Of a stretch of DNA of 40,410 bases, positions 18,387-23,193 are shown one piece after another; position 1 is the stretch's first letter, and each line of letters begins with the position of its first letter. The position numbers were made by a program, and so were the translations under genes. Location of the stretch: contig JAUWDY010000013.1 in the NCBI GenBank assembly GCA_030608565.1, positions 1 to 40,410 on the forward strand, in the 5' to 3' direction. The notes beneath the pieces are model-generated. The model saw only the letters and a list, made by a program, of their open reading frames with translations. It was not told the origin of the DNA and did not search any database. This DNA comes from Candidatus Bathyarchaeota archaeon (lineage in GTDB: Archaea; Thermoproteota; Bathyarchaeia; Bathyarchaeales; Bathyarchaeaceae).

Positions 18387-20504
18387 ATGAGACGATGCCA
18401 GGTAACTGGAAGTTTAGTTCTATTTTTGTCTGCAACTCTTCTAGTGGCGCCGCACCCCAGCGGGATGTCGGCAGCTTCTCAATCTTCAGCGCTGGACCTA
18501 CTACGATTCAGGGTCATAGAAACCTATGATAGTAGGCTTCTTGCCATGCAGACTGAAGTGACAGATGTTTTGCCCGATCTCATAAGAACATCTGACATTG
18601 AAAAGCTAGATTACGATGGCTTTCTTGTTACACAAGACGTAGGTTTTCACATAGGTTTTCTAGCATATAACATCAGGGACACAGCAACGATCAATTCCTA
18701 CTACAGACCTGAGGTAAGTTACTGGCCTCTTCACGATGTGGAATTCAGGCATGCACTCTTCCACTGCTTTGACCAATCGACGATTATATCTCAGATATAC
18801 GGTTACACTGCAACGCCTGTTCGTTCGCTTGTTCCACCTGCCCAAAGCAAATACTACAACCCTGGTGTTCCCGAACATCCATATAACCCAGGCAACCCAT
18901 TCACATCCCTACCTGGAGAGCACTCAACATGTGGCATACTGAAAGCTGCAGGCTACACATTTACGGACGCAGACAGCAGCGGAACAATTACAGCCGCAGA
19001 CTACTGGAAATGCCCAGACGACTCTCCTCTGCCATACCTAGAAATATGGTGGCCACAACCCCCTATAGCCTGCTGTGTGCCCAGCGTCTCCGACGAGTTC
19101 GTCGCAGACCTATCCAAAGTAGGGTTGGCAGCAACCACGGCAAACGGGAACAGCGGCTTCATAAGCATGGGCCGAGACCTCTTCGAGTACCTAACAGACG
19201 TGTACGATTTTGCTGCGTTCGACGCTTACGTGATCTTCTACAATCTTGGGCGAACCCCTGGTCAACTGTATACACGGCTTCACACAAGCCAAGACTGCCT
19301 GTCGCATCCAGGTAGAGGGAATGCTCCTGGAGTCAACGATTCAACTATAGATGCACTCTGTGACGTAGTAAAATTCAGCCTTGACACAAACAACATCGAA
19401 ACAGCAGCAAAACAAGTTCAAGAAATGCTGTACACACCAGACTACAATGAAAACACCGACAACTTCGCATTATCTTACATGACCTATTATTCAAGGACAT
19501 ACTTCAACGCTTACAATCCAAACCTGAGAGGAGTTATCAAATCACCAGGCTACGGATCGGACAATGGGTGGACTTTCCTGAACATCCACTGGTTGCCAGA
19601 GACCGAAAGGATTGAAGAGGGAAGAGAAGTGGTAATATGGACCCAAGACCGTAAACCTGACAGCTTTAATCCGCTCTACGCAAGAACTGCATGTGAGTGG
19701 GAAATTTTAGATCGCCCATATGATGGGCTCACCAACATGAACCCTTACAACCACCATGACATTCCTTGGCTCACCTCAGATTGGGCAGTCACAGAAACAG
19801 TAGGTGGAATGGATATAGATTTTACACTGAGAAGCGATGTCGAATGGCAAGACGGCACCCCGTTCACAGCTTACGACGTTAAATTCTGCCTGGATTTCCT
19901 CAAAGACTACCAAGTGCCCAGGTACGCTGAAACATGGCAGACACTCGTGGGCGTCTCGGTCACAGACGTAACTCACTTCACGATACATACCAACAAGGCA
20001 GGGCTCGATCTGTTCTACGACTACTCAGGTCTCGCGGCGATGCTTCCAGAACACATTTGGAATCGATTTGGCGATCCAAATGACCCACTTGTCAGACAAG
20101 CCGTCTTAGACTATGATCCAACTGAGTCTTACAATGTTGCCTCGGGCTACACGGCTGGACCAAACCCAACTCCAACAAACTTGTTCGGAACAGGTTCTTG
20201 GATATTCCAATTCTACGACGAAGTAAATATGTACTGCGATTTGTGGAAAAACGAGAACTACTTTATAACGAATGCTGAGACACAAAACCGATTAGGAGAC
20301 ATGTTCTGGGGAGTTGGCGACTACAACAAGGACGGTGTTGTAAACGTTGTCGACTTGACTTTCGTGAGCTTCGCTTACGGATGTATTCAAGGACTCGACC
20401 TCTGTTACGATGCTGATGCAGACTTTAACTCAGACGGCATCGTAGACATGAGAGACATAGCCAACTGCGCCCACCACATGCTGTGGCAAAGAGAAGATCC
20501 ATAA
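18387..20504 (+). CDS. Family 5 solute-binding protein, apparently permuted, with C-terminal dockerin
   Basis: A 705-residue exported protein: signal peptide (VTGSLVLFLSATLLVAPHP), then residues about 30-410 resembling the C-terminal lobe of peptide/nickel-type SBPs (LLRFRVIETYDSRLLAMQ, VEFRHALFHCFDQSTIISQI, LVPPAQSKYY). Residues about 413-635 resemble the N-terminal lobe (VVIWTQDRKPDSFNPLY, FTLRSDVEWQDGTPFTAYDV, MLPEHIWNRF). That order is the reverse of the family's. Residues about 644-700 are a type I dockerin with two calcium loops (DYNKDGVVNVVD and DFNSDGIVDMRD). Dockerins bind cohesins, two of which are encoded just downstream. Start ATG 18387 behind AAAGGAGATG. Family function would be capture of peptides or oligosaccharides for an ABC transporter; no transporter genes are in the window. 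Confidence 0.88.
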   Translation: MRRCQVTGSLVLFLSATLLVAPHPSGMSAASQSSALDLLRFRVIETYDSRLLAMQTEVTDVLPDLIRTSDIEKLDYDGFLVTQDVGFHIGFLAYNIRDTATINSYYRPEVSYWPLHDVEFRHALFHCFDQSTIISQIYGYTATPVRSLVPPAQSKYYNPGVPEHPYNPGNPFTSLPGEHSTCGILKAAGYTFTDADSSGTITAADYWKCPDDSPLPYLEIWWPQPPIACCVPSVSDEFVADLSKVGLAATTANGNSGFISMGRDLFEYLTDVYDFAAFDAYVIFYNLGRTPGQLYTRLHTSQDCLSHPGRGNAPGVNDSTIDALCDVVKFSLDTNNIETAAKQVQEMLYTPDYNENTDNFALSYMTYYSRTYFNAYNPNLRGVIKSPGYGSDNGWTFLNIHWLPETERIEEGREVVIWTQDRKPDSFNPLYARTACEWEILDRPYDGLTNMNPYNHHDIPWLTSDWAVTETVGGMDIDFTLRSDVEWQDGTPFTAYDVKFCLDFLKDYQVPRYAETWQTLVGVSVTDVTHFTIHTNKAGLDLFYDYSGLAAMLPEHIWNRFGDPNDPLVRQAVLDYDPTESYNVASGYTAGPNPTPTNLFGTGSWIFQFYDEVNMYCDLWKNENYFITNAETQNRLGDMFWGVGDYNKDGVVNVVDLTFVSFAYGCIQGLDLCYDADADFNSDGIVDMRDIANCAHHMLWQREDP

Positions 20505-20999: not shown

Positions 21000-21848
21000 A
21001 TGAAATTGGAAAAGAAAGTAGCATATGGAATAATACGGTCACTGCTATTGGTGGGCATGTTAACATTAACCTTTAATCTGACGACAGCTTATGCTTCGCC
21101 TGATACTATTCTTTACATAGAACCTCCAAGCATTATAGACCCAACCCTAACACCTGGAAATAGCTTTACAGTAGACGTGATGGTTTCTGATGTTGAATAT
21201 TTCTTCGCTTGGCAGGTTAACATGAGCTTTAATCCTGCTGTGTTGGAAATTATCGACATAATTGAAGGAGATTTCCTAAAAGATCAGCCAGAGGGAACAA
21301 GTGGTATTGTGAGCAGAGTCGAAAATGAACAGGGATGGGCACTCTTTGGCTGTGCTACTATTGGACCATATATTGGAAAAAATGGTAGCGGAACATTGGC
21401 CACAGTAGAGTTTGAAGTCGTGGCAGAGGGGGAATCTCTCATCAAATTTGAGACTGATCCAGTCTATGTTAACCCCCCAGGCTATTGGCTATATATGACC
21501 TATCTGGTGGGACAAAGCGAGTCTAACCCTCCCCCTAACTTCTATGATATTCCTTTCACAGCAGAAGACGGGTATTTCAACAATTTCGGTGTTGCGCCCC
21601 CTAGCATCTACGAATTGATTGAGATTATCGAAAGTTGGAACTTGCCTAGAGGAACTGAAAAGAGTCTGATAGCTAAATTGAAAGTTGCAGAGCACATGTT
21701 AGATATGGGAAGAGAGGATGGAGCAATACGAAAACTAACCGCCTTCATTGACAGAGTTGAGATCCTAAGAGGCAAAACATTAACGAATGAACAGGCGGGC
21801 TATCTAAAAACGGAAGCACAAAGAATTATAGACCTTATCGAAGGATAA
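21000..21848 (+). CDS. Secreted cohesin-domain protein with FIMAH-like tail
   Basis: A 282-residue protein. Signal peptide at residues 1-33 (IIRSLLLVGMLTLTFNLTTAYA). Residues about 38-190 form a cohesin-type beta-sandwich: LTPGNSFTVDVMVSDVEYFFAWQVNMSFNPAVLEI, then GDFLKDQPEGTSG, and SGTLATVEFEVVAEGES, all placed as in type I cohesins. The last 70 residues (TEKSLIAKLKVAEHMLDMGR, AIRKLTAFIDRVEILRGKTL) are a helical FIMAH-like module. By family the cohesin binds a dockerin, here most simply the one ending at 20504. There is no sortase signal, S-layer domain or membrane anchor, so how it stays on the cell is unclear. Start ATG 21000 after AGGAGAAAG. Confidence 0.85.
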   Translation: MKLEKKVAYGIIRSLLLVGMLTLTFNLTTAYASPDTILYIEPPSIIDPTLTPGNSFTVDVMVSDVEYFFAWQVNMSFNPAVLEIIDIIEGDFLKDQPEGTSGIVSRVENEQGWALFGCATIGPYIGKNGSGTLATVEFEVVAEGESLIKFETDPVYVNPPGYWLYMTYLVGQSESNPPPNFYDIPFTAEDGYFNNFGVAPPSIYELIEIIESWNLPRGTEKSLIAKLKVAEHMLDMGREDGAIRKLTAFIDRVEILRGKTLTNEQAGYLKTEAQRIIDLIEG

Positions 21849-22130: not shown

Positions 22131-22177
22131 GCAAAAAAGAGGAGATGTTGGTTGTACCTTGCATTTTATGGTACAAC
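22131..22177 (-). terminator. Hairpin and T-run at the end of the cohesin gene
   Basis: On the minus strand the arms GTTGTACC (22177-22170) and GGTACAAC (22158-22151) form a perfect 8-bp stem whose loop contains the TAA stop codon. A CTTTTTTGC run follows at about 22132-22139. Archaeal termination depends mainly on the T-run; the hairpin overlapping the stop codon is unusual. Confidence 0.45.
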
Positions 22178-23023
22178 GGCGAAGCTGAAGGTTTTCACCT
22201 TCTCTCCCTGGGACCAATAGGTTCCGCTCCAACTATACCAAGCTTTAGCGCTCACATAGTATTTCCCAGCATCCGCAGGTACCAACGGCCCGAAATTCGC
22301 TGTTAGTGTCATTATTGTGTCAGGCGTAACGACAATCTCGTCCGTGCTCACAGTGGTAACAAAGGTGTCACCGCGCATAATATCGAATGTTACCTTGACG
22401 TAAAGGTCGATAGGTCCAATGTTTTTCACTTTAGTAAAGAGACTTTGAATCGCATCTTCGTCTTTTGACACAACAAAGTGGTGGTGCTCTGGCCATGCGC
22501 TTCGTCTAACCAAATTAGCACATGCAGTGATGTAGAAGTATCCGCCCGCTGTGTCGTGAGACATCATTGTACCAGTAGAATCTAGGAGAATAGTATCGTA
22601 TAGAGGCAAGTCGCACGCTCCAGCATCCATGACATTAAAGGTTATACTGACCAAGACTCCGCTGCCGCTAATTCCAGGATATTTCCCTAAGGTGACGCAG
22701 GCAACATAGATGTAGTCGCTGCTGACGATGTATGTGAAGTAGGTTCCCATGGGGGACGTTGTTTGATCTCTTATGAAGGGTCCCTCGTCGACGCTAACTG
22801 GGGTCAGAAGATTGCTGTCAAAGCCTAGTTTAGCCTCGTAGGAGAACAGGTCCACAACATCTTCGATGTTAATATCAATGGTAAATGAATCTCCAGGATT
22901 CGCACTTATTTCGGGGGGTGAAACCCGCAGAACTGGAACAGGTGCAAACGCTTCTGCAAAAGCTACGCTCGATAGACATACTAAACAAGCAAGTATCAGA
23001 GAGAGCTCCTTTATCTTTAACAT
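22166..23023 (-). CDS. Secreted cohesin-domain protein with C-terminal beta-sandwich
   Basis: About 285 residues. Signal peptide ELSLILACLVCLSSVAFAEAFA. Residues about 33-170 are a cohesin: NPGDSFTIDINIEDVVDLFSYEAKLGFD, then EGPFIRDQTTSP, and GSGVLVSITFNVMDAGACDL. The remaining 110 residues form a second beta-sandwich (FTKVKNIGPIDLYVKVTFDI, FGPLVPADAGKYYVSAKAW) resembling CARDB-type domains. The frame opens at 23050, but ATG 23023 is chosen because the signal peptide begins there and GAGG precedes it. Together with the genes at 18387 and 21000 it makes a small extracellular cohesin-dockerin set. Confidence 0.85.
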   Translation of the reverse strand: MLKIKELSLILACLVCLSSVAFAEAFAPVPVLRVSPPEISANPGDSFTIDINIEDVVDLFSYEAKLGFDSNLLTPVSVDEGPFIRDQTTSPMGTYFTYIVSSDYIYVACVTLGKYPGISGSGVLVSITFNVMDAGACDLPLYDTILLDSTGTMMSHDTAGGYFYITACANLVRRSAWPEHHHFVVSKDEDAIQSLFTKVKNIGPIDLYVKVTFDIMRGDTFVTTVSTDEIVVTPDTIMTLTANFGPLVPADAGKYYVSAKAWYSWSGTYWSQGEKVKTFSFAVVP

Positions 23024-23193
23024 TCCTACTGCCTCACTTCTCGCATTCAAACTTTAAGCTCTAGTTGTATTAATGGCTTGTGAAACAATTTTCTAGGATT
23101 CTGTTGTGTTGAAGCTTGTTCTGGAAGGGAAGAGCGGAGAAAAGAAAAAAGCGTGAGGAGAAACACTCCAAGAAGCAGTGACACGATATTTCT

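Follow-up and report, generated by a model that had tools for sequence, protein, structure and literature searches.

The open reading frame (ORF) at positions 18387-20504 of the window, the whole 40.4-kb contig analysed here, very probably encodes an anciently permuted binding protein of the Opp/Dpp kind (probability roughly 0.85), which is predicted to form a two-lobed clamp and to be tethered near an importer through a dockerin-cohesin link. Chain order, completeness, conservation, gene neighbourhoods and anchor types were established directly, whereas the fold, the binding of ligand and cohesin and the sharing of an importer are predictions. The permutation is a conserved, widespread form that is not peculiar to the window gene.

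The ORF is on the forward strand, as are all of its features, and is a single open frame encoding 705 amino acids (aa). A signal peptide (approximately residues 1-30; coordinates 18387..18476), comprising a hydrophobic segment behind MRR, is the sole part of the protein that resembles a membrane helix. The protein scored 104.8 bits against the Pfam family 5 solute-binding protein (SBP) profile SBP_bac_5 (PF00496; cut-off 32.4 bits) in two stretches that abut with zero overlap, 18489-18890 matching profile positions 147-266 and 19764-20264 matching positions 4-141. As positions 147-266 are found ahead of 4-141, the order of the chain is reversed, and as the canonical N-to-C order is absent the protein was classified as a permuted variant of SBP_bac_5. 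None of the NCBIfam models reached its cut-off. When divided by profile position into segments N (about 1-145), C1 (about 145-280) and C2 (from about 285), the protein has the order C1-C2-N, and the original prediction that the signal peptide is followed by the C-terminal part, with the N-terminal part after it, was thus borne out. Each of the three segments is present once and is complete, as opposed to two incomplete SBP copies, and no ordinary upstream gene that could supply the N-lobe was seen.

The canonical C-terminal portion (residues 36-397; 18492..19577), which is placed first and includes SBP_bac_5 positions 147-266 with C1 and C2 complete, comprises the second part of domain I, domain III and the last piece of domain I. 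It is connected by a joint of 15 residues, LNIHWLPETERIEEG (residues 398-412; 19578..19622), that leads from the native C-terminus to the native N-terminus, and is followed by the canonical N-terminal portion (residues 413-633; 19623..20285), which carries the GTPFTAYDV motif and SBP_bac_5 positions 4-141. The sequences NYFI and LLRFRVIE at the new ends agree with those named previously. The type I dockerin that had been predicted at the C-terminus was also found (residues 644-693; 20316..20465), with a score for Dockerin_1 (PF00404) of 26.8 bits against a cut-off of 22.9 bits, and the DxNxDGxxxxxD pattern is intact in both of its calcium loops, DYNKDGVVNVVD and DFNSDGIVDMRD.

Proteins with the order C1-C2-N were designated class A, and 45 of them were analysed in 41 genomes of the Thermoproteota, the phylum in which GTDB places the Bathyarchaeia. 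The host genome (G000) encodes a paralogue, L002 (C8:62595-64718), with the same order and 63% aa sequence identity over residues 10-705. The profile was matched in 134 of 257 Bathyarchaeia genomes, with the class A order co-linear in many of them, and of the 398 genomes sampled across the Thermoproteota, 33 had listed matches that span both parts and are co-linear in this order. Homologues with the same order, for which a search had been proposed, are therefore numerous. The length of the joint varies little, being exactly 10 residues in 31 of the 45 proteins and 7-10 residues in 35 (range 7-18). No relative was found in viral contigs. Unpermuted relatives are present in the same family and class, and a 2064 aa frame in genome G024 (L120:5926-10999; contig C28) was found to combine an unpermuted family 5 SBP with CBM96, thioredoxin/redoxin-like and PQQ-type beta-propeller modules. 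In two class A SBPs, L014 (residues 136-311) and L089 (residues 121-452), C1 is interrupted by a module to which the tail of L013 is related. The second half of the module is ahead of the first in L014, and half, whole and half copies follow one another in L089, indicating that the insert is itself rotated or out of phase.

The window protein was rotated stepwise, and each version was scored with a profile built from unpermuted relatives (630 positions). Rotation at residue 405 converted the two matches into one co-linear alignment covering profile positions 64-568 of 630 and raised the score of the single best alignment from 98.8 to 154.1 bits. The best cuts were at residues 405-420, i.e. at the joint within a few residues, and the outcome was the same for the paralogue L002. 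The single-alignment score was not raised by rotation of L131 and L088, two distant class A proteins, as the C part alone dominates their score. The circular permutation that had been proposed is backed by this test together with the paralogue, the dozens of co-linear homologues and the agreement between trees of the two halves described below.

Family 5 structures have a domain I assembled from three pieces of the chain, with the two termini among them, an inserted domain II, and a domain III that forms lobe 2; in AliD, domain I consists of residues 29-63, 191-296 and 583-617, domain II of residues 64-190 and domain III of residues 297-582 (PMC11192437). On the 4oet chain, the class A cut maps to the interval from about residue 192 to about residue 201, and on mature DppA to the vicinity of residues 205-211. 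Judged by comparison with AliD, it lies within the second piece of domain I, in lobe 1. With the new ends at that site, lobe 1 is re-threaded and the two lobes are not simply exchanged as blocks, so that the original description of two lobes in reversed order holds for the reversal of order but is imprecise as to the lobes. Among the 60 solved chains listed, there was no match crossing the joint. In the best of them, 4oet, the N part matched at residues 6-192 and the C part at 201-487, and the listed chains agree with the N-part-first order that had been described as canonical for the family. An AlphaFold2 model built with an input of only two sequences (the window protein and one relative) had a pLDDT of 29.

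Class A tails are mostly a dockerin or a membrane helix, those outside the Pfam-scanned set being assigned by eye; in L105 (G199) the tail is neither. When 20 genomes were searched for cohesins, these were present in all 10 genomes whose class A protein had a dockerin tail on inspection (G000, G011, G014, G023, G024, G025, G124, G141, G184 and G195) and in none of the 7 with a helix-tailed protein. Genomes G026 (tail masked), G021 (tail not inspected) and G199 (neither tail type) are also cohesin-positive and are uninformative. This pattern suggests that the dockerin takes the place of the membrane helix as the tether.

Two cohesin genes are located next to the window SBP gene, and both products are candidate partners for the dockerin. 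The first (21000..21848, forward strand) encodes a secreted cohesin-FIMAH protein (PF00963, 35.1 bits; PF22888, 33.8 bits) with no C-terminal membrane helix, and the second (22166..23050, reverse strand) encodes a secreted cohesin protein (PF00963, 49.1 bits) that is a distant relative of the cohesin-like protein encoded beside the paralogue (29% identity over 217 residues). The FIMAH module (PF22888) was also found at the C-terminus of the class A SBP-dockerin protein L014 and is possibly another attachment module. The cohesin-PKD-CARDB proteins encoded at the paralogue locus and at the G011 locus end in a membrane helix, making them natural candidate anchors for the dockerin proteins.

ATPases with an oligo_HPY domain are typical of Opp/Dpp importers. 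Among 20 genomes checked, at least 12 have a gene for one within about 8 kb of the class A gene, often in divergent orientation. At the paralogue locus, the genes for cohesin-PKD-CARDB, BNR-repeat-dockerin, cohesin-like and SBP-dockerin proteins are followed by divergent genes for OppB, OppC and two ATPases, and the cassette OppF-D-C-B / SBP-dockerin / cohesin-like / BNR-dockerin / cohesin-PKD-CARDB-TM recurs in G011, which belongs to another genus. The BNR-repeat (sialidase-like) dockerin protein of the conserved cassette (L074, 4491-6110; L077, 11717-13627) hints at ligands derived from glycans.

On the window contig itself, no oligo_HPY ATPase was found in the 40.4 kb and there were no importer genes among the scanned ORFs, and hence the window copy may not feed a transporter. 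Together with the two neighbouring cohesin genes, this would fit a reading that accepts the permutation but takes the window copy for a docked surface scavenger or sensor that no longer serves as an importer subunit. However, its 63% identical paralogue lies beside a complete Opp-type operon, and the use of several binding proteins by one importer is established for DppA1-A5 of Pseudomonas aeruginosa (PMC4206461). Loss of the importer role is considered unlikely.

A second alternative is that the C-part of one SBP gene was joined to the N-part of a different neighbour, producing a chimera that would work as a swapped dimer or as separate halves. All 45 class A proteins fell into a single clade (bootstrap 76) when a maximum likelihood (ML) tree was computed from the re-ordered segments, and the branches next outside this clade were L115, which is unpermuted, and L143, which belongs to the second permuted class considered below. 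When the halves were analysed separately, class A formed a clade by itself in the N-part tree and a clade together with the unpermuted long-branch L115 in the C-part tree. Both trees have L143 as the next branch, and their agreement points to one rotated gene and not to a fusion of unrelated halves. The packing of the two portions on each other is not readable from sequence alone, and a domain-swapped dimer exists for an unpermuted family 5 SBP, AliC (PMC11192437). However, each segment is single and complete, and the short, near-constant joint is what would be expected if native termini had been covalently closed, so that a chimeric origin is regarded as very improbable. An assembly or gene-calling artefact, of which no sign was found, is extremely improbable, as the frame is open throughout and the order is repeated in dozens of genomes that were assembled independently, including single-contig ones.

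The position of L115 (L115:4806-6881; G203:C32), a long-branch SBP with native order in or beside class A, may reflect reversal, a chimera or long-branch attraction. Under a mixture model, a free quick search placed it inside class A, whereas a tree with class A held together had a likelihood above that of the free quick tree (p-AU 0.83). As class A held together outscores the free tree, a reversal of L115 to the native order was not adopted.

The preferred explanation, that of an ancient permutation, is that a gene for a family 5 binding protein was circularly permuted long ago, with a short loop linking the native C- and N-termini, both of which are in domain I, and new termini created in the same domain, where the strand that ends in '..ANPxYF' was separated from the one that begins with 'GPRxDxLxxxV'. 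The permuted chain would be expected to retain the two-lobed clamp of the family, and the tether would leave lobe 1 from a different point. In this lineage, the tether is a dockerin, which would bind the cohesin of a surface protein, either secreted or anchored in the membrane, a link that would keep the binding protein near its importer. For the paralogue at G000:C8, an importer and a membrane-anchored cohesin are encoded nearby, and the window copy may be a second binding protein that shares the C8 importer, or else a surface scavenger.

The third family 5 SBP found in the host genome (G000:C21:21222-22946; L039, L072) has the order C2-N-C1 and was designated class B. This class is cut near profile position 285, which falls in domain III, and the order was counted as co-linear in about 26 of the 398 genomes of the phylum. 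The class B gene at G000:C21 adjoins an Opp-type ATPase pair. The class A paralogue and the class B protein, the other two family 5 SBPs found in the host genome, are both permuted, and none with the native order was thus detected there. The two classes are alike in that the native C-terminus is closed to the native N-terminus, the same kind of importer is found nearby and both occur in the host genome, but they differ in the domain that is cut (domain III in class B, domain I in class A) and in the tail. Most of the class B proteins aligned have a membrane helix at the end, and no dockerin was found among the 11 aligned. A common clade of classes A and B was not rejected (p-AU 0.29).

For the Thermoproteota as a whole, the odds appear even that permutation of family 5 SBPs is standard and arose at least twice, in domain I for class A and in domain III for class B, that it moved the tether relative to the clamp, and that membrane helix and dockerin-cohesin link were exchanged at the same new C-terminus. 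If so, import in these archaea would run on binding proteins with an attachment geometry unlike that of the bacterial models. Few receptors of ABC importers have been studied as closely as the family 5 binding proteins, and a single chain order is common to the solved chains found. A conserved natural permutant with a short joint offers a ready test of how strongly docking to the importer and closure of the lobes depend on the site of the chain end and anchor. The exchange of dockerin and membrane helix at one position suggests a role for archaeal cohesin-dockerin pairs outside cellulosomes, in holding import receptors at the surface. As profile searches return two partial matches, permuted proteins look truncated and annotation is misled.

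The window protein resembles the family 5 SBPs (OppA, DppA, NikA and AppA) in scoring above the cut-off of the profile, in carrying the full set of segments and in the type of partner importer, OppBCDF, which is found beside the paralogue, but its chain order is rotated whereas that of the listed solved chains is canonical. No description of a permuted family 5 binding protein of either class was found among the solved structures searched or in the open-access literature, which is an incomplete coverage, and an earlier account is possible. The original statement that no permuted SBP of this family docked through a cohesin was known to have been described agrees with this result, but fusions of SBPs to dockerins as such are known, as OppA/NikA-type binding proteins with a dockerin have been reported in ANME archaea (PMC9012536). 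The ANME proteins are similar in combining a NikA/OppA-type SBP with a dockerin in genomes that encode cohesins, and differ in that permutation is not mentioned in that report (PMC9012536). An SBP from the Methanosarcinales (L037:1563-3407) with normal order and a dockerin-like tail at the C-terminus represents an unpermuted counterpart. Circular permutation has been described in glycine betaine-binding proteins (PMC2395249), which likewise represent a natural permutation in binding proteins of ABC importers. However, these belong to another SBP family, and their permutation relates them to molybdate-binding proteins and CysB at less than 24% identity (PMC2395249).
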